A stretch of DNA of 64,000 bases, taken from the NCBI GenBank assembly GCA_001604065.1, contig LVAO01000006.1, positions 124,001 to 188,000 on the forward strand, in the 5' to 3' direction. Each line of letters begins with the position of its first letter. Position 1 is the stretch's first letter. The DNA comes from Clostridiales bacterium Firm_09. Lineage in GTDB: Bacteria; Bacillota; Clostridia; Christensenellales; DTU072. Made by a program: the position numbers and the translations under genes. The notes below the pieces were generated by a model that saw only the letters and a list, made by a program, of their open reading frames with translations, made no database searches and was not told the origin of the DNA. Below, piece by piece: positions 14,744 through 25,074 of the stretch.

Positions 14744-15688
14744 TTATAATGACGTTTCTATGATGCTTATTTTGCCGTTTATGGAGGTATCGCAGCCCGC
14801 GGGAACAAATACCGTATCGCCTTTTATAATTCCGGTTCCGTCAAACAGTGTGCCCTGCCCCTCAATCACGGTAAAGGTAACAAAACTGGAGGCATGATAA
14901 ATAGGATAAATGCCGTCAATATTGATTTCCCGGGCAACAAAATACGGGCATTCCGCAAGCTTCCTTATTTTATAATCCTTATAATTATCGGCGCCGCAGG
15001 ACTGCAAAGGAAGCTCCTTTTTGCTTCTGTCCAGGACGGCAAGAGCCTTTTCGATGTGAAGCTCGCGCGGTTTGCCGTCCGCGCCTTTTCTTCCGTAGTC
15101 ATAAAGACGATACGTTATTCCGCTGTTCTGCTGAATTTCAATCACCGTAATGCCCGCAAGCAGCGCATGGACAGTGCCCGCTTCCACAAAATAGGTGTCT
15201 CCGGCTTTGACCGGGATTTTGTTGAGAAGGCTGCACAGGGTATTTTCGTTTATCGCCCGCCGCAATTCTTCTTCTGTCACATCGCGATTGAAACCGTAAT
15301 AGATGCAAGCTCCCGGCTCTGCATCCGCGATATACCACATCTCGGTTTTGCCGGGCTGATTCTCATGTTCCATTGCATAGCCGTCGCCGGGATGCACTTG
15401 TATGGAGAGATCTCCCGTTGCGTCAATCAATTTGACAAGGATCGGAAAGCCTCTCCTCCCTTCCGCTTTCTGGCCCAAAGCTTCGGGATGCGCAGCAAGA
15501 TAAGCCGAAAAATTTTGAGAAGCATGGATACCGGTCGCAATGATGCTCTCCTTGCCCGGATACGCAGAAAGCTCCCAGCTTTCTGCAACCTTCGCGGGTC
15601 CGCCTGTTTTGTTCCAATACTTTTTTAGTTTTTCACCGCCCCAGATATAATCCAGAAGGACAGGAGAAAGTTTGAATGGTTCTGTCAT
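14744..15688 (-). CDS. manA: Mannose-6-phosphate isomerase, class I
   Basis: Interconverts mannose-6-P and fructose-6-P. The zinc-site motifs are present: QVHPGDGYA with a His, GKTEMWY with a Glu, and VEAGTVHAL with a His. LDYIWGGEKL near the start is typical of short bacterial (Firmicute) type I enzymes of about 315 residues. Two ATGs lie close together; 15688 is preferred because AAGGA lies 8 bases before it, while the one at 15697 has no spacing. The ribosome site overlaps the stop region of the giant lipoprotein gene, so the two are co-transcribed. Confidence 0.92.
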   Translation of the reverse strand: MTEPFKLSPVLLDYIWGGEKLKKYWNKTGGPAKVAESWELSAYPGKESIIATGIHASQNFSAYLAAHPEALGQKAEGRRGFPILVKLIDATGDLSIQVHPGDGYAMEHENQPGKTEMWYIADAEPGACIYYGFNRDVTEEELRRAINENTLCSLLNKIPVKAGDTYFVEAGTVHALLAGITVIEIQQNSGITYRLYDYGRKGADGKPRELHIEKALAVLDRSKKELPLQSCGADNYKDYKIRKLAECPYFVAREINIDGIYPIYHASSFVTFTVIEGQGTLFDGTGIIKGDTVFVPAGCDTSINGKISIIETSL

Positions 15689-15700
15689 TGTTGTCATCCT

Positions 15701-18700
15701 TTATACGCGCAGCCAATAGAAATTATAATAGACCTTGATGCCGTTATCATAACCTTTCAATCTCCAATCCACATTCCAACTGTTGGGAACGGCGGGTACG
15801 GTTTCCTGATTATATTCGCAGAGAATCTGAAGCGATGCGCCACAGTCCTTGAAGATATGTCCGCCCATTGAAGTAACCGTATATGGTATTCTTATCTGCT
15901 CCAGACCGGTGCATCCAGTAAACGCGTTCCAGCCGACGGAAGTCAGCATGCCATCTTCTGCAGAGATATCCGCATAAGTCAATGCGGTACAATAGGCAAA
16001 GGCAAAATTTCCTATTGTTCTTACCTTGGAGGGAAGCTCCACAGTCTGAAGAGCGCTGCAATAGGCAAAGGCATAGGTGTCGATGACGGCAAGGTTTTCC
16101 GGCAGCGCAATACCTGTGATATCGCTGTCGGAAAAGGCATAGCTGCCGATTTTGGTAACATAAATACCCTCAATCATCGTGGGGATGACGGGTGCCGGTT
16201 CGCTTCCGGTGTAGCGTGTCACGGTGACGTTCCCGCTATTTACAACCACATATTCGAAGTTGCCCAGATATTTTATGGATTGCACCGACCAATAAACGGG
16301 TCTGCCATCCGGATTCCAGCTTGCATTCCAGCCGGAAGGCGCCGATGCGGCCTGACAATATATTGTCAGTCGCGGATTGTTTGCAAACGCACGGGCGGCA
16401 ATCGAAGTAATATTGGCAGGTATCAGCACAGAATAGACAAAATCGATACCCAGCATGGCACCCGCGCCGATACCGACCACCGGAATGGGCTGGTCCGAGT
16501 CAATCGTTTCGACTGTTTCGGGAAATGAAAACGATTCGGACACACCGAGATAGCGGGTGATGATCGCATTTCCTTGCGCGTTGACGATAAACTGATAATC
16601 GTTGCCGTAATAATTGACGGATGAAGCCCAGTTCACCGGACACGCGGTATTCCATTCATTATCCCAGCCGGAGGGCTTGGACTCAGATTGACAATACAGA
16701 ACCAACGAGGCTGCTCCGTAAAATGCTCTGTAGCCGATAAATGTGATTCTGGAAGGAATCGAAAGCGACTTCAGTTTTTTTGCAGAGAGAAACGCATACG
16801 CACGGATTCTTGTTGTGCGTGAATTTATCATGATGGTCGCATCGGGTTTTCCTGCCGGATAAACAAGCAACTCAGAATAATTTTTGGTATACAGCACACC
16901 ATCGGCGGAAACAAATACACTGTTGTTTTCGGATACCTCAAACCGTGTCAGGGACTGGCAGCCGGCAAACGCGGCTTCTCCCAAGGTGCCGACAGACGGT
17001 CCCAGTGTCACGCTGGTCAGCGAATAACAGTTATAGAACGCATAGTCTTGTATGGTCTGCAGCGTAGCGGGCAGAATTATCAGCGCAAGAGAGGTGCAAC
17101 CATAAAAGGCGCTCTTGCCGATAGACGTCACGGGTCCGATTCCCGCAGCGAACAAAGAAGTACAGCCGTAGAACAGGCTGTCGGGAATTTCTGTGACCGT
17201 TTGGGGCAATACGATTTCTAGCAACCGGGTGCAATAGGCAAAGGCATATGTGCCAAGCGATGCCAGCTCGCTGTTGCCCTCAAAAACAACCGTTCTCAGA
17301 CCGTATGCCTTATAAAATGCATAGGTGCCGATAGAAGAAACGGTTTCCGGAATGACGATTGAAGTGATTCCGACCGCCGAAGAAAACGCGAATTCTTCTA
17401 TGACCGTCAAAGAATCGGGCAAATTGAGGGTCGTCAGATTGGCGGCGTCGGCAAAGGCATATGCCTTGATTCTCGTTACCGTTGCGGGTATCGTATAGCT
17501 TGAAGCCGCTGAACCCGAAGCATACTTGATCAGCTCCTGACCGTTTTTGGTCAGCAGATTGCCGTTGTCGGACATAAAGACGGCGTTCTCTTCGCTCACA
17601 TTGATCTGACTGAAATTGGTATTGCGGAAGGCGCCGTTTCCGATAAAGGTCAGATTGGCGGGGATATAAATTTCTGTCAGAGAGATGCAACCGGATACCG
17701 CATATTCTCCGATGGATTGCAGATTGCTGTTTTGTGAAATGTGCAGAACGGCGAGCTTCGAGCAGTTATAAAAGACCTTTTCGCCCAATGTCTGCAAGGA
17801 ATCGGGAATTTCTACTTCTGTCAGGTTGTAACAAAGATTGAAAGCGTAGGATTGTATCTCTGTCAGAACGCTGCCCGGAGCAAACGAAACCGTAAGGAGC
17901 CCCATCGCTTTACCGTCTTTGCCCGCAAACGCATAGCTGCCGATAGAAACGACCGTCGCGGGAATCATGATATGCTTCAAGGCCCTTGCGCCGTAGAACT
18001 GATACCGGCCTATTGATGCAAGGTTTTGCGGGAGAATGATTTCTTCCATCGCCGGGCAGTTATAGAAAGAATAATCCCCGAGATCGGCGAGCGCCCCGCC
18101 CGGCGCAAACGTGACCCTTGTCAGTCCGGTACAGTTGTAAAACACCCTGTTGCCCATTCCGTTTGACAAGAGAGTGCCGGGAATCCAAATTTCTTCCAGC
18201 CGCACGCAGCCGGCAAAGGCGCGATCCCCGATTGTTTCAAGACGGTAAACACCCGGGAGAATGCTGAATTCGGCAATCTGAGAATTTTCAAATGCAGAAG
18301 CCCCGATTCTGCTCAAGCCCGCGGGAATAGCGAGCGAAGCAATTCCGCTGTTATAAAAGGCATAATCGCCTATGCTCATCAGCATCGAACCTGCGTCGAT
18401 CGTCAAAGAAGTCAATGAGGGAGTGTTATAGAACAGATATTCATTGATTACCCGGACTTTGGATGGCAGATATACGTCATTGAGCGAAGCACAATTGTAG
18501 AAGGCTCCTGCGCCGATCGTTTCTAGGGAGGAAGTATCGCGGATAATGACCGTTTCGAGCGACATCGGCCGGTAGCTTGTTCCCGCAAAGGCATAGGCGC
18601 CGATGGTCGCCACATTATCGGGTATCGTCAGCGAGCGCAGCATTGAACAGGAATAGAACGCGTAGCTTTCTATCGACGCTATGCTGGCATTCAGCGTCAG

Positions 18701-21700
18701 CTGTTCTATGGCGCTGCATCCGTAGAATGCGCCGTAAGGCAGTCTTGTTGCGGCCGTCAGGGTAACGTTCTTTAATGTGCTCGGGATATAGTAATATCCG
18801 AAGCCTTCATCGGAATAATATTGGAGAGTTGTACCGTCCGCTATGCCCTGCGCCATGCCGAATATCGCGCCGAATACGGCATCCGCTCCGGAAGATATCC
18901 TGGATAGTCCGACATAGGGCAAGGTGAGCGACTCCAGCGAAGACCATCCGCGCAAAGCACCTGCGCCGATTGCGCCGATTCCTGTCGGTATGACAAGGGA
19001 AGCCACCTTGTTGCAATAGGCAAATGCGCCTTCCCCGATTTGGGATATCACAGAATTTTCTGCAAACGAAACCGAAACAAGATTCATCGGAACAGCTTCG
19101 CTTCCCGAAAACGCGCCCTCACCGATTTCGTTCACATATCTTGGAACAGAAATGGCCGAAAGCGCCGTACAATAAGCAAACGCATAACTCATGATTTTTT
19201 GTAGCGCGCTGCCGGACGCAAAGACAACCGTGTTCAGGCTCATCGGATGCGCGGCGGTGCCCGCAAAGGCATACTGATCAATCTTTGTCACCGTCGCGGG
19301 CACGGTTACCGACTCCAGCGACGTATTGCCTGCAAAGGCATACGGCCCTATCGTTATGACGCCGCTTGGGATGGACACATCGGTCAGTACGGCGGCTGCG
19401 GGATATTGGATGAGCGTCTCGCCGTTTTTGGTATACAGTCCGCCGCCGATGCTTTTGTAAAGCGCGTTTGCGGCGGCAACGTCAATTTGGGTCAGCAGCG
19501 GACACATGCCGAAGGCGGAGTCGCCGATCGAAGTGACGGATGCCGGCACATAAACAGAACGGATGCCCGAATGATAATAGGCATATGCACCGATGGACAA
19601 GACCGATGCCGGCAGGCTGATCGAACCGACTCTCATATTGCCGCAATCGGCAAACGCATACTGACCTATCTTTTCCAGCCCGCTCTGTGCGCTGATAATG
19701 ACCTGTTCAAATTCCGCCTCATAAAATGCGTACGATTCGATTTCTAAAATCGAATCCGGCAATACAAAGTCATCTCCCGCATACGCATAATTTCTGAAGG
19801 AATTGCTATTAATGACGCTGATGGAGGCGCCCGGAGCAAATCGGACAAGCGCGGTGCAGCCGGAGAAAGCATATGCGGCAATCCCTGCGGCATTGTTCAG
19901 CACAATTGTCTGGGCAGGAATATTCATAAACGCGCCGTAGGGCACAAACACGGAGTCCGTCAGTATCAGCGTCTCAAGCACGGGTATCTTCGCATACACC
20001 GCAGACCCGTTCTTCTTGATTTGTGACACCGCTCCCTGGAAGTTGGCGGTATAAGCGCCAAAGAAATATGCAAGCGTATTGGTATCATCGCCAGGCGTTG
20101 CGCCAATGAAGGGAATCTCCAGGTTGCGGAGGGTATCGATCCCCTCTGCGATGGATTTGCCGATGACTGTAACCGAAGAAGGAATTCTAAGCGATGCCAG
20201 AGAAGTATCCGCAAAGGCATATTGTCCAATCGACTCTAAGACGGCAGAGCTCAGGTCGACAGAGGTCAGCGCCGAGCCGAAAAATGCGTATTCTGCTATG
20301 GAAACCACGCTTTGCGGCAAAACAAAGCTCGTACCCAGATAGCCTGCAAAAGCATAATCTCCTATGGACAAAAGAGAGTCAAACACAACATCCGCGGCGC
20401 AGCCGGAAAACGCGTACATCCCGATATCCGAAATCCGGGAAGCAAACGTCACCGACAGAAGCCCTGTATTCTGGAAGGCGTAATTGGCTATGATATCCGT
20501 GTCAGTCACCGTCAGGGCAATCAATCCTGCGGGTATCTGATAATAAGCGGTCCCTTGACAGACGGCGCCGGGGTTTCCCTCTTCCGAAGTTTCAAACATT
20601 GCGCCAAGCGATGTGGCATTCGCAGAAGACACGCCCACAAAGGGTACCGTAAGTTCCGTAAGCGCATTCATCCCGGCAAACGCGCCCGGGGCAATTGAAG
20701 TTACGCCGGAGGGAACCGTCAGCGAGGTCAACGCGCATCCGTAAAAAGCATATGCGTTGATGGCGACCACGTTTTCGTTCACGGTATATTCTGTCCCTGG
20801 TTTGGCCGCAGGATACTGCAGCAGCTTGCGCGAAGCGCCCTGCCTTTCATATAAGATGCCGTCGTCGGAAACAAAAATGCCGTTGCCCGAAGAAACGTCT
20901 ATCGCTTCCAGGGTCGGACATCCCGCAAACGCGGCATCCGCAATCTGAGTGACATATTCCGAGAGCGCGATGGACTGTACAGGCGTTCCGGCAACAACAT
21001 ATGCACCTATCCGTGTGACCGTCTGAGGAATGTCGATTTGGGTAAAGCCGGCGCCGGCAAGCGCATAATCATGCAATCTTGTCAGCGTATCGGGCAATTC
21101 GACCGACGTCCGCTGGTAGCCTTTGAATGCATACGGATTTATTTCACTGATTGTGGGATTGTCAAACAGTATTTCGGCAGAAATACCGTAGAAAGCGCCC
21201 TCATTGATCTTTTTCACAGAGCTGTTGAGTGTGATTGTATGCAATCTGGACGCACCTTCAAATGCAAACGGGCCTATTTCTCTTGTGCCGGTCGGGACTC
21301 TGTACGACGTACCCGTTCTTCCCGAGGCATAGCGCACAAGCACCGCATTCGACGTTCCTTCCAAGGTAAAGAGAGAAAACCCGACCGAAACATAGCTGGT
21401 ATTGGCAATATCGACACGGATTTCCTGCAGAGATGCGGTACCTGTCAACGCGCCGCTGCCGATGGAAGATACCGTTTTAGAGAAGAAAATCGTGCTCAAT
21501 GCGGCGCAGTAGGCAAAGGCGCCTTCCCCAAGCGTCCGGAGCAGGGAGTCCTGCGTGAACGATATCGCATTGACGAGATTGGGTGTCTCCGCGGTTCCGG
21601 CAAAGGCGTACGCGCCGATTGAAGTCACAGAGTTGGGTATGGAAAGGGTAAAAGAGATGTCGGATTCGTTGCTGCGGTTTCTTCCGAATACGGCGGTCCC

Positions 21701-24700
21701 GGCAAAAGCATAATCCCCTATGGTTGTCAGCTTGTTGCCGGAAAGGCTGAGCTGTCGGAGGTTTTTTGCGTTTTCGAAAGCATGTGCGCCGATCGTCACC
21801 ACGGAAGCGGGAATGGTCAATACGTCAAAGAACGATTCGCCTTCCAGATTTCTGCCCAGCGTTTCCCAATTTGCAAAAGCATACCGGCCGATGGTCGTAA
21901 GCACCGCGGTCGCAGGCGTCAGGCTCAGGCGCGCCACATTTCTGCAGTTGTAAAATGCATAGTCCCCTATCGTTGTCACCTTATTGGGAATATTGATGGT
22001 TGTCTTCACGAGCCCGTTATCCGAAGTGCCGATGCCCGTGCATTCGGCAAACGCATAATCCCCGATGCTTGTCAGATTGCCGCCTGTGGTGAATGTCAGC
22101 AGGCGGATTGATGAACAACGGTAAAATGCGTACTCTCCGATCGAAGTGATCGAAGCGCCGATGATGATCGCCGCGCTGCCATCCGCCCTGCCGGAATACA
22201 GCCTGGTGCAGTCCGCAAAAGCATATGCACCGATCGAAGTGGCATAAGTAGAAATATTGACACGGGCAAGAGAAGAACAGCCCTGAAAAGCGTATGCGCC
22301 GAATGTTCTCACAACGTCATGCAGAACGAGGGAATCCAGTTTGTCATCGCCCTGGAAGCAATACTGAGGTAGTGCAGACACCTGGCTGTTGACGGGAAAA
22401 CTGACCGTTCTCAATGCCGTGCAATTGCGGAAGGCTCCCGTTCCCAGTGTTGTCACGCCCGCAGGTATCGTGACGGAAAGCAATCTGGAATTATTGGCAT
22501 AAGCATATGCACCGATGGAAGTCAGCGTCGCTGGGAGCAAAGCGCCGGAAATGCCCGTGTTGTATAAAGCGTAATCGCTTATCTGCGAAAGGGGCGCAGA
22601 CAAGGTCACATTTGTGATATGGACACAGTTGCTGAACGCGCCGTACATCAGCCTGGAAGCATTGGTGACGGTGACGGAAGCAAGGCTTGCAGGAATCGAA
22701 TAGGTCGCCGATACGGAAGCGGAAAGACGCTGCTCGGTACCGGTGGAAGCGCTTGAGAAGAAATATCCCAGCACGCCCTCCTCATCCGATGTATAAAATC
22801 TGTTTTTGCCGACAAACGGCACCGACAACGCCGTTATATTGGTTTTATCCAGGACTCCCGCACCGATTTCTGTTACAGAAACGGGTATGGTCAGCGTAAG
22901 AAGTCCGCTCTCCGCAAAACAATTTTGGCCTATCGTTGTCAATCCGGAAGGAAGCGTGATGCCGGTCAAGGATGTTGTTTTATAAAATGCCCCGTTGCCG
23001 AGCGATGCGACAAGGGATTGCTCGCCGAATTGAACGGAAACAAGATTTCTGCAGGAGGCAAACGCCTGCGCGCCGACCGAAACGACGTTTTTGTTGAGCG
23101 TGACCCGTTCCAGAGAAGCGATGTTCTGGAAGGCAGCCCGGGGTACGGAGACGGCGGCGGTCAATGTCACACTTTTCAGACTGCCGGGAATCGCAAACCC
23201 GACTGTGGGATTATCCACAAAGTTCTGGATCACCGCGCCCGGCTGCCCCGCGGCAACCGCACCGAACAGATATCCGAGAACAGAATTTTGTCCGACCGCA
23301 TCCGCGGAAGCCCCGACGAAGGGGATGGTCAGTGTGGTCAGATTATAACAGCCGTTCACGATGCCCGCGCCGATTTTGGTAACAGAATCCGGTATGACAA
23401 GATTCGTCAGCATCGTATTGTTGCGGAATGCGCCCGCATCAATTTCTACGACGTCGATGTTGTCGATTTTTTGCGGCACGATGATTTCGCTGGAATTGCT
23501 TGTGTATCCCGTGATCGCATATTTTCCGGCAGAAGTGAGACGCTTGGTAAGTTCTATTTTTGTCCATTTTGCATAAAACACTCTTGCGCCCGTGCTGCCG
23601 GTAGCGATGGTGGTGTTTGCCGGAACGGTGAATCCGGCATCCAGATACCAGCCTTCAAACGAATAGCCGGATTTTGCCGGTTCGATAAGAGTAAACGTAG
23701 GTGTGGTAATGGTATAGGTCAGCGGATTGGCAGAGGGATTGACCGCGTCGCCCATATTGTTGTATGTGATGGTGTAATTGATGATATTCCATTTTGCCAC
23801 AAGCGTCACATTCTGATTGCGGGTATTATATAAACTGCCGGGCTGGCCGACAATCTGACCTATTGAAGCGTCATACCAGCCGCCGAAAGAATAACCGCTG
23901 CGCGAAAATGGGTTCTGCGGGAGGACAATCGTTTCATTGACTTCATAGTTGGCGGAAGCCGGTGCCGTACCGGAGATTCCCGTTCCTTCGCCCGGTCCAA
24001 AAGAAAGCACGTATGTGACAGGCGGGATATCGAGCATCCATACCGCGGTAAACGTGACCTCCGCCGTCACAGTATAATGATAGCCGGGCGCAAAGGTCGC
24101 CGTACCATCGCTCCATCCGGTAAAGATATACCCTTCTCTTGTAAAAGGATTGGCAGGCAGGGTAATCTCATTGTTTTTTTTGATATTCTGTGCAGGAGGA
24201 ATCTCTCCTTCTACGAGATGCGCAATCAGCGGATCCCCTTTCGCAAAAGAAACAGTATATTCCGTTTCGTTATACTCAACCGTCTTCTTTTTCCATTTTG
24301 CATATAATGTGACGTCGCTATCGGGTATATAGGGGAAGCGGACTAAAAATGATAAAGTCTGGTAAAGATACCAACCTTCAAAATCATATCCTTCTCTGGT
24401 GGTGACGGGAGCGGTCTTGATGCGGTTGGTGTCCATTTCGGCAACGGGCGTACCGCCATTGGTTTCAAAACGGACATGATAGGTAAGGTCCGCCGCGCTC
24501 TCGTCCTCTTTTTCTATCCATCTGGCATATACTGTTCTGTCGTGGAAAATGGGCGATTCCAACAATGTGTCTTCTGTAAAAGGTTTGTTCCAGACATTCT
24601 CGTCAAAATACCAGCCGTCAAAGGTATACCCGTTTCTTACAGGGGCATCGGGAAGAAGGATGGACTCGTTGCCTGTGGTAGTAATCGTGAATGCCTCTTC

Positions 24701-24826
24701 GCCGTTATTCGGCTGAAAGGTAATCACATATGATTTTTGCACCGTTTCTGAATCAAACAGCCCCTCGCAGGCAGCCAATCCGAATACGCACATAAATGCG
24801 AGAATCATTAGCAGGACCTTTTTCAT
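15701..24826 (-). CDS. Giant BspA-like leucine-rich-repeat surface lipoprotein with InlB-type repeats
   Basis: 3041 residues in one unbroken frame. Residues 1-20 are a lipoprotein signal with lipobox LAAC (Cys20). Five Listeria-Bacteroides (Flg_new/InlB B) repeats follow (about 30-420), each with a '..GY.F.GWY.......YA.W' pattern. The rest is mostly LRR_5 (BspA/TpLRR) repeats of about 23 residues such as 'IG.YAFA.C..L..V.IP..V..'. Two other modules are interspersed, each about five times: 'LT.PFVG...LG..FG...Y.IP..L..VT.T' and 'DG.LYTKN...L..YPA'. The C-terminal part has three 'GWN..WN' segments; the protein ends there with no sortase motif or membrane anchor. Probable role: adhesion or ligand binding at the cell surface, from family knowledge only. 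GGGAGGG precedes the ATG. Confidence 0.92.
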   Translation of the reverse strand: MKKVLLMILAFMCVFGLAACEGLFDSETVQKSYVITFQPNNGEEAFTITTTGNESILLPDAPVRNGYTFDGWYFDENVWNKPFTEDTLLESPIFHDRTVYARWIEKEDESAADLTYHVRFETNGGTPVAEMDTNRIKTAPVTTREGYDFEGWYLYQTLSFLVRFPYIPDSDVTLYAKWKKKTVEYNETEYTVSFAKGDPLIAHLVEGEIPPAQNIKKNNEITLPANPFTREGYIFTGWSDGTATFAPGYHYTVTAEVTFTAVWMLDIPPVTYVLSFGPGEGTGISGTAPASANYEVNETIVLPQNPFSRSGYSFGGWYDASIGQIVGQPGSLYNTRNQNVTLVAKWNIINYTITYNNMGDAVNPSANPLTYTITTPTFTLIEPAKSGYSFEGWYLDAGFTVPANTTIATGSTGARVFYAKWTKIELTKRLTSAGKYAITGYTSNSSEIIVPQKIDNIDVVEIDAGAFRNNTMLTNLVIPDSVTKIGAGIVNGCYNLTTLTIPFVGASADAVGQNSVLGYLFGAVAAGQPGAVIQNFVDNPTVGFAIPGSLKSVTLTAAVSVPRAAFQNIASLERVTLNKNVVSVGAQAFASCRNLVSVQFGEQSLVASLGNGAFYKTTSLTGITLPSGLTTIGQNCFAESGLLTLTIPVSVTEIGAGVLDKTNITALSVPFVGKNRFYTSDEEGVLGYFFSSASTGTEQRLSASVSATYSIPASLASVTVTNASRLMYGAFSNCVHITNVTLSAPLSQISDYALYNTGISGALLPATLTSIGAYAYANNSRLLSVTIPAGVTTLGTGAFRNCTALRTVSFPVNSQVSALPQYCFQGDDKLDSLVLHDVVRTFGAYAFQGCSSLARVNISTYATSIGAYAFADCTRLYSGRADGSAAIIIGASITSIGEYAFYRCSSIRLLTFTTGGNLTSIGDYAFAECTGIGTSDNGLVKTTINIPNKVTTIGDYAFYNCRNVARLSLTPATAVLTTIGRYAFANWETLGRNLEGESFFDVLTIPASVVTIGAHAFENAKNLRQLSLSGNKLTTIGDYAFAGTAVFGRNRSNESDISFTLSIPNSVTSIGAYAFAGTAETPNLVNAISFTQDSLLRTLGEGAFAYCAALSTIFFSKTVSSIGSGALTGTASLQEIRVDIANTSYVSVGFSLFTLEGTSNAVLVRYASGRTGTSYRVPTGTREIGPFAFEGASRLHTITLNSSVKKINEGAFYGISAEILFDNPTISEINPYAFKGYQRTSVELPDTLTRLHDYALAGAGFTQIDIPQTVTRIGAYVVAGTPVQSIALSEYVTQIADAAFAGCPTLEAIDVSSGNGIFVSDDGILYERQGASRKLLQYPAAKPGTEYTVNENVVAINAYAFYGCALTSLTVPSGVTSIAPGAFAGMNALTELTVPFVGVSSANATSLGAMFETSEEGNPGAVCQGTAYYQIPAGLIALTVTDTDIIANYAFQNTGLLSVTFASRISDIGMYAFSGCAADVVFDSLLSIGDYAFAGYLGTSFVLPQSVVSIAEYAFFGSALTSVDLSSAVLESIGQYAFADTSLASLRIPSSVTVIGKSIAEGIDTLRNLEIPFIGATPGDDTNTLAYFFGAYTANFQGAVSQIKKNGSAVYAKIPVLETLILTDSVFVPYGAFMNIPAQTIVLNNAAGIAAYAFSGCTALVRFAPGASISVINSNSFRNYAYAGDDFVLPDSILEIESYAFYEAEFEQVIISAQSGLEKIGQYAFADCGNMRVGSISLPASVLSIGAYAYYHSGIRSVYVPASVTSIGDSAFGMCPLLTQIDVAAANALYKSIGGGLYTKNGETLIQYPAAAVLTDVSIPSGVITIGPYAFAGNTSLESVTVPATVTKIDQYAFAGTAAHPMSLNTVVFASGSALQKIMSYAFAYCTALSAISVPRYVNEIGEGAFSGSEAVPMNLVSVSFAENSVISQIGEGAFAYCNKVASLVIPTGIGAIGAGALRGWSSLESLTLPYVGLSRISSGADAVFGAIFGMAQGIADGTTLQYYSDEGFGYYYIPSTLKNVTLTAATRLPYGAFYGCSAIEQLTLNASIASIESYAFYSCSMLRSLTIPDNVATIGAYAFAGTSYRPMSLETVIIRDTSSLETIGAGAFYNCASLNDVYLPSKVRVINEYLFYNTPSLTSLTIDAGSMLMSIGDYAFYNSGIASLAIPAGLSRIGASAFENSQIAEFSILPGVYRLETIGDRAFAGCVRLEEIWIPGTLLSNGMGNRVFYNCTGLTRVTFAPGGALADLGDYSFYNCPAMEEIILPQNLASIGRYQFYGARALKHIMIPATVVSIGSYAFAGKDGKAMGLLTVSFAPGSVLTEIQSYAFNLCYNLTEVEIPDSLQTLGEKVFYNCSKLAVLHISQNSNLQSIGEYAVSGCISLTEIYIPANLTFIGNGAFRNTNFSQINVSEENAVFMSDNGNLLTKNGQELIKYASGSAASSYTIPATVTRIKAYAFADAANLTTLNLPDSLTVIEEFAFSSAVGITSIVIPETVSSIGTYAFYKAYGLRTVVFEGNSELASLGTYAFAYCTRLLEIVLPQTVTEIPDSLFYGCTSLFAAGIGPVTSIGKSAFYGCTSLALIILPATLQTIQDYAFYNCYSLTSVTLGPSVGTLGEAAFAGCQSLTRFEVSENNSVFVSADGVLYTKNYSELLVYPAGKPDATIMINSRTTRIRAYAFLSAKKLKSLSIPSRITFIGYRAFYGAASLVLYCQSESKPSGWDNEWNTACPVNWASSVNYYGNDYQFIVNAQGNAIITRYLGVSESFSFPETVETIDSDQPIPVVGIGAGAMLGIDFVYSVLIPANITSIAARAFANNPRLTIYCQAASAPSGWNASWNPDGRPVYWSVQSIKYLGNFEYVVVNSGNVTVTRYTGSEPAPVIPTMIEGIYVTKIGSYAFSDSDITGIALPENLAVIDTYAFAYCSALQTVELPSKVRTIGNFAFAYCTALTYADISAEDGMLTSVGWNAFTGCTGLEQIRIPYTVTSMGGHIFKDCGASLQILCEYNQETVPAVPNSWNVDWRLKGYDNGIKVYYNFYWLRV

Positions 24827-24944: not shown

Positions 24945-24973
24945 ATAATATAGAGGAAACGGCCTTTTGTCAA
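24945..24973 (-). promoter_or_regulatory. Sigma-A promoter of the giant lipoprotein-manA-glcK unit
   Basis: On the minus strand, TTGACA (24968-24973), 17 bases, then TATTAT (24945-24950) match the consensus at 11 of 12 positions. The start would be near 24938, giving a leader of about 110 bases that holds the direct repeat AATAACAGAC and a short inverted repeat (AGACT/AGTCT, 24916-24928). Confidence 0.7.
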
Positions 24974-25045: not shown

Positions 25046-25074
25046 AAAAAAGCCCCCTTCGGGAAAGCTTTTTT
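25046..25074 (-). terminator. Terminator of the V-ATPase operon
   Basis: AAAAAAGC and GCTTTTTT flank an inner CCC/GGG stem. On the minus strand the hairpin ends in a T-run. It begins 6 bases past the last V-ATPase gene. Confidence 0.8.

Follow-up and report, generated by a model that had tools for sequence, protein, structure and literature searches.

A predicted giant BspA-type lipoprotein with two recurring modules, probably enlarged LRR_5 units, in a Clostridiales genome

The window (the whole stretch of DNA analysed, 64,000 nucleotides) encodes a 3041-residue protein that we read, with a probability of roughly two in three, as a BspA-type lipoprotein forming a predicted surface rod with enlarged units of two kinds, modules A and B, and most likely acting in adhesion or surface binding. 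Pfam finds five Flg_new and 24 LRR_5 stretches in the protein, the LRR_5 family (PF13306) scoring 1247.9 bits against a cut-off of 27.7, and a position-specific repeat parse gives 74 LRR_5 anchors spaced mostly 22-25 residues apart. This confirms the five InlB-type and many LRR_5 repeats described in an earlier, sequence-only reading of the same DNA, and the giant protein comprises at least 74 LRR_5 units. Ten gaps between anchors, of 58-117 residues, coincide with the ten sites of modules A and B (Table 1). Four further gaps are long (49-112 residues): those of 50 and 49 residues each hold, by eye, one additional LRR unit skipped by the parse, and the remaining two, of 112 and 84 residues and close to the C-terminus, contain a further recurring element that the earlier reading had not picked out, C....P.GW...WN, whose cysteine falls at 2712 and 2824. 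A diverged third copy of this element is seen by eye at ~3003, and each of the first two is followed, again by eye, by a restart resembling the beginning of the solenoid near residue 425. The element resembles a C-cap, because in relatives it either closes the protein (L033, L034) or has a comparable restart behind it (L038).

Table 1. Features of the giant gene and its surroundings, in positions of the window; residues are those of the giant protein.
Feature	Position	Strand	Remark
Giant open reading frame, predicted BspA-type LRR_5 lipoprotein	15701..24826	-	3041 aa from ATG
Putative signal peptide with lipobox LAAC, residues 1-20	24767..24826	-	by eye
Five Flg_new / List_Bact_rpt (InlB B-type) repeats, ~residues 35-425	23552..24724	-	outer limits by eye
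Main LRR_5 solenoid, ~residues 426-2703	16718..23551	-	limits by eye
Module A copy 1, residues 493-566	23129..23350	-	profile
Module A copy 2, residues 661-731	22634..22846	-	profile
Module A copy 3, residues 1386-1451	20474..20671	-	profile
Module A copy 4, residues 1563-1633	19928..20140	-	profile
Module A copy 5, residues 1961-2034	18725..18946	-	profile; confident model
Module B copy 1, residues 1133-1189	21260..21430	-	degenerate
Module B copy 2, residues 1306-1361	20744..20911	-	confident model
Module B copy 3, residues 1778-1831	19334..19495	-	
Module B copy 4, residues 2405-2458	17453..17614	-	
Module B copy 5, residues 2626-2679	16790..16951	-	
C-terminal part, residues 2704-3041: three C-cap-like elements	15704..16717	-	third diverged, by eye
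Sigma-70-like promoter TTGACA-17-TATTAT	24945..24973	-	11/12 match
Intrinsic-terminator-like hairpin, upstream of giant gene	25046..25074	-	
Presumed phosphomannose-isomerase-like gene	14744..15697	-	starts 4 nt past giant gene's stop

Both modules were located five times, near the residues at which they had first been noticed. Module A has the signature PFVG...LGY.FG...Q...IP and covers ~66-74 residues including the following strand, close to the ~65 residues originally given for it; module B has the signature DG.LYTKN..L..YPA, and the 25 residues originally given for it are the hairpin core of a unit of ~54-57. Start-to-start spacing is irregular (168, 725, 177 and 398 residues for A; 173, 472, 627 and 221 for B), and the first copy of B is 26% identical to the reference copy. 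Chance is excluded as the source of the recurrence of A, as a profile of four copies scores the fifth, held-out copy at 39.8-71.5 bits, far above both the shuffled controls (at most 7.5 bits, 200 shuffles per held-out copy) and the remaining LRR region (at most 1.7). Homology between A and B was considered and rejected on a profile comparison probability of 4%, the two being treated as unrelated; MAFFT kept placing A rows on B in joint alignments, and such alignments were excluded.

Structure prediction indicates that neither module is a domain apart: A and B are each an LRR_5 unit into which extra strands have been inserted. An AF2 model of residues 1895-2110, which contain copy A5, was built on an alignment of eight sequences (all five copies of the window plus three taken from two viral contigs) and reaches a mean pLDDT of 93.4 and a pTM of 0.90. 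In this model LRR strands 1966-1969 and 2020-2023 flank an insert composed of a PYVG loop, short helices at 1980-1983 and 1985-1989, and strands 2000-2003 (TLQY) and 2009-2012 (FGYY), the second helix (FGAIF) apparently replacing the usual IG..AF turn. In a model of residues 1278-1530 copy B2 has block pLDDT values of 92-98; its strands, 1308-1311, 1318-1321, 1324-1329, 1332-1337 and 1346-1348, make up an LRR strand followed by a small beta-meander. Copy A3 lies in the same model, the alignment of which held no other A rows, and falls below pLDDT 50 at model positions 122-132 and 135-151. AlphaFold models, to which the sequence-only reading had looked for a decision, are thus confident for A5 and B2 and not for the A3 insert, so the predicted fold of module A rests on one copy.

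The models bear directly on the proposal that the modules act as rigid turns or joints, bending or resetting a very long solenoid. Foldseek places the A5 model closest to 4h09 (E 4.1e-6, TM-score 0.55 by query length), and VIA aligns it with 4fs7 over 171 of 216 residues (Z 15.1, rmsd 3.5) and with 4h09 over 170 (Z 14.6, rmsd 3.3), the next match being an insect Toll LRR (Z 13.2). This alignment with plain LRR solenoids spans the first to the last residue, and the 45 unaligned residues, which the output does not identify individually, come to about the length of the insert; going by their titles, all 50 VIA matches listed for each model are LRR proteins, which excludes nothing. Fixed, irregular sites retained in orthologues would suit joints, for which long LRR rods might have a need, but with LRR strands running on at both sides in both models, the A model matching plain solenoids end to end and module B sitting inside PDB chains of just 379-445 residues, we regard turns as quite unlikely, a slight bend at a module being conceivable.

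Module B is already known as a BspA-type variant and occurs in crystal structures 4h09, 4gt6 and 4cp6. Its profile matches these chains at E 1.2e-15, 4.1e-11 (over positions 12-54 of 54) and 4.2e-12, respectively, with a weak, partial match to 4fs7, and the same three, the chains matched below E 1e-10, are the top three PDB chains for the B2 model in VIA (Z 17.7, 16.5 and 14.2; next 11.7). For module A we used a narrow profile of the five window copies and a broad one of 34 rows, all from the host's family. When searched against solved structures, the broad profile retrieves a single hit, at chance level (E 0.92), and copy A3 together with its flank is matched weakly (E 0.024-0.44) and for the most part in its plain LRR portion, so that comparison with solved BspA-type proteins recovers B and leaves the A profile without a match. 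That the modules might prove to be ordinary LRR_5 variants, the outcome named as fatal to the original idea, is therefore the case for B and half the case for A, which is by its model an enlarged LRR_5 unit yet is not recognised on its own by the Pfam LRR_5 model (0/34 isolated copies at E<=1, against 5/5 plain 74-aa stretches at E<=4.4e-10). This recognition test does not single out A, since none of the five isolated copies of B is matched either. No family of Pfam, NCBIfam or PHROG matches more than one of the 34 module A copies (best E 0.019), and by title and opening of abstract no paper dealing with such modules was found. Absence from family databases is weak evidence of novelty, as isolated B copies are equally unmatched in Pfam (just two chance-level matches), and by these searches module A seems uncatalogued. 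The original observation is accordingly correct and the turn idea disfavoured, with B already known and A new within a known kind.

The range of module A was followed from family to phylum. At E 1e-3 the narrow profile matches 29 of 40 genomes of the host's family, the host's own included, and at E 1e-6 it matches the host's genome alone among the 398 of a phylum sample. This sample, evenly drawn, consists of the host's genome, 14 of the same class and others from the rest of the phylum, with no other genome of the host order among the rows listed. At E 1e-4 the broad profile finds A in 102 of 297 genomes of the order (42 of 125 genera), 85 of the 102 belonging to other families; its matches within the host's family are partly by construction, as all 34 rows come from there. 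In the phylum sample at that same limit it matches 0/397 other genomes and module B is found in 19/397, so the absence of A there does not reflect a general lack of such proteins. Among 20 named genomes searched three carry A (G721, G723 and G733, the last a goat colon MAG with a shorter form of the module), and none of 21 named LRR loci does at E<=0.01. A tree built on a single gene, with 17 rows (18 marker matches less the partial G697; G723, having no marker match, stands outside it), groups G721 with genomes of the host order (99/98), and G733 with G719 (100/100) and, at lower support, with G181, which belongs to a different order (88/84). The placement of G733 is tentative, since the tree does not recover the host order as one group, its member G439 lying across the root (88/84); the order of G181, as sampled, holds one weak partial match to A in 196 genomes. 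Strict confinement to one order was rejected on this weak evidence, the grouping of G733 outside it, and the range of module A is probably not strictly one order.

Large A-bearing proteins recur in the host genome and its order. A paralogue in the host's own genome (L021, G000:C2) has 3778 codons, a lipobox, five GYxFxGW (Flg_new-type) motifs and 14 copies of A by the narrow profile, the broad profile raising this to 17 matches, some of them partial; its counterpart in the same genus has 17 A matches at corresponding places. Another LRR_5 open frame of the host genome (L022, G000:C15; 4552 codons) shows no A or B module by motif or profile in the 4078 codons examined. In many genomes of the order A-bearing LRR_5 proteins are very long, with open frames of 2000-4700 codons and one of 12660. 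This largest frame (L119/L120, G619:C11, from ~101572 to the contig end) runs off its contig. Its first 6000 codons contain 20 A matches and its second half YDG domains, Pfam having covered ~9850 codons. The parts of these very long proteins are poorly catalogued, and module A offers a concrete family for annotation and a small target for structural work.

Two IMG/VR contigs (L107, 2221-4167, and L108, 1402-4452) also encode LRR_5 proteins, with two copies and one copy of A, respectively, and by eye without a lipobox. One of these viral proteins has as its neighbour a collagen-like protein that matches tail proteins (phrog_819, E 2.9e-24). Its counterpart on the second contig begins with a virion-type N-terminus (phrog_2729, E 5.3e-7) and adjoins an integrase. 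The two loci were recovered with a relative's module copy. A scan of viral contigs with the window's own A+B stretch gave no match, and a further scan returned the same two contigs and one more, whose LRR locus (L112) has no A match. LRR proteins also occur in 34 phage records.

Orthologues in two genomes of the same genus are 54% identical to the giant protein over 3061 and 2847 aligned columns, the one in G015 ending at a contig end. Module A lies at 505, 674, 1399, 1580 and 1975 in one and at 497, 669, 1394, 1575 and 1970 in the other, and module B at 1144, 1317, 1791, 2426 and 2646, and at 1138, 1312, 1787, 2413 and 2635, so that the number and place of the five A and five B modules are unchanged in both; short partial matches of the B profile to plain LRR units (5 in the window protein, 6 and 3 in the orthologues) were not counted. 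Conservation in this comparison is 0.555 for A, 0.536 for B, 0.539 for plain LRR units, 0.559 for Flg_new and 0.567 for the C-terminal part, with one orthologue usable past residue 2800. No extra conservation of the modules over the LRR background is seen between these orthologues, and the modules, conserved like their background, give no sign of a special binding site.

Two other readings turn on these figures. The modules may be neutral LRR_5 length variants, spread by repeat recombination and having no function of their own, as the equal identity of modules and LRR units between orthologues and the differing numbers of A and B among paralogues would allow; but number and place are fixed between orthologues that differ at ~46% of residues, and most copies of A and B retain their signature residues, so that neutrality is possible but doubtful. 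The hairpins might instead be ligand-binding sites, module A providing a specific recognition common to bacterial surface and phage tail-type proteins. The 14 to 17 recurrences of A in the sibling protein, and its presence in LRR proteins of two viral contigs beside a tail-fibre-like neighbour or behind a virion-type N-terminus, would fit such sites, but the conserved residues are only scaffold-like (P, G, F, Q, IP) and the module is no better conserved than background, and we consider this reading, too, possible but doubtful. A bolder proposal, that A is an uncatalogued portable hairpin LRR unit, mainly of one order, arrayed in giant surface proteins and acquired by the phages that infect these bacteria, within their tail recognition proteins, appears to us unlikely; if true, phage and host surface would share one recognition surface, and the occurrence of A in phage tail-type proteins makes such sharing testable.

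Sequence evidence supports an N-terminal lipid anchor for the giant protein. Lipoboxes follow the pattern [LVI][ASTVI][GAS]C, and residues 17-20, at the end of the signal ...FGLAAC (sequence MKKVLLMILAFMCVFGLAAC), conform to this lipoprotein pattern when read by eye; the two orthologues have LAAC or LTAC, and the paralogue has LAAC. The host genome encodes signal peptidase II (LspA; PF01252, 115.9 bits against a cut-off of 25). It yields no match to sortase (PF04203), which is weak evidence given that the genome is just 79% complete, and by eye the protein has no LPXTG-like C-terminus, ending ...NFYWLRV. The lipid anchor in place of a sortase motif claimed by the sequence-only reading is thus upheld. 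A sortase-anchored or internalin-like protein, which the InlB-type repeats might call to mind, is scarcely tenable against the lipobox, the lack of an LPXTG-like end and the absence of a sortase match in the genome.

For the BspA-type lipoprotein rod that we favour, assembly can be envisaged from these parts. Processing by signal peptidase II and attachment of lipid to the lipobox cysteine would tether the N-terminus to the membrane, the five InlB-type repeats would form a stalk, and the rod of at least 74 LRR_5 units would project outward with its C-terminus farthest from the cell, an orientation suggested by the N-terminal lipid anchor and the lack of a C-terminal sorting signal. An LRR unit rises by roughly 0.5 nm, and 74 units would span some 35-40 nm, stalk excluded. 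Each module would retain its LRR strand, add strands and then pass to the next unit, module A contributing a short helix and a two-stranded hairpin and module B a small beta-meander, and neither would terminate or clearly bend the solenoid. The hairpins probably protrude from the rod, and the inserts may offer additional faces at fixed places along it; we infer both the adhesin role and a use of the hairpins in binding.

The giant gene is preceded by a sigma-70-like promoter and a terminator-like hairpin (Table 1); searches for such promoters on both strands found 2 sites against 1.1 expected in shuffles, and for terminator-like hairpins 3 against 0.4. Upstream of the hairpin lie what we take, from their sequences, to be V-type-ATPase-like genes. 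The closeness of the presumed phosphomannose-isomerase-like gene to the stop of the giant gene suggests one transcript, which possibly includes further sugar-metabolism-like genes. Its downstream neighbours are presumably a ROK-type kinase and a radical-SAM-like gene, and the order isomerase-like, ROK-type kinase, radical-SAM-like after the giant gene is also found in G014. Sugar-metabolism-like neighbours could hint at carbohydrate uptake instead of adhesion.

Among known systems, Listeria InlB B-repeats (Flg_new, PF09479) have five counterparts here, placed between the anchor and the LRR region, whereas in internalins the LRR precedes the B-repeats; the LRR type and the anchor of Listeria internalins also differ from those of the giant protein. 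The LRR_5 stretches match the HupY/LrrG adhesin model (NF047961) at 387 bits, against a cut-off of 1250, and the gliding protein Gli349 model (NF045861) scores 132.4 against 1750; the protein is a member of neither family. Repeat family and fold are shared with the BspA-type LRR_5 proteins of known structure (PF13306; 4h09, 4gt6, 4fs7, 4cp6, which is PcpA, and 6mlx, which is TpLRR), the solved chains being at most 445 residues long against 3041 here, and none of them matched by the module A profile. By description, Tannerella BspA, Treponema LrrA and the BspA-like proteins of Trichomonas are surface LRR proteins of the TpLRR/BspA kind (PMC2843621). In the passages of that source dealing with BspA and LrrA both are cell-surface proteins that promote adhesion to epithelial cells, and BspA binds fibronectin and fibrinogen (PMC2843621); it is on account of these activities that an adhesin role is our best guess for the giant protein.
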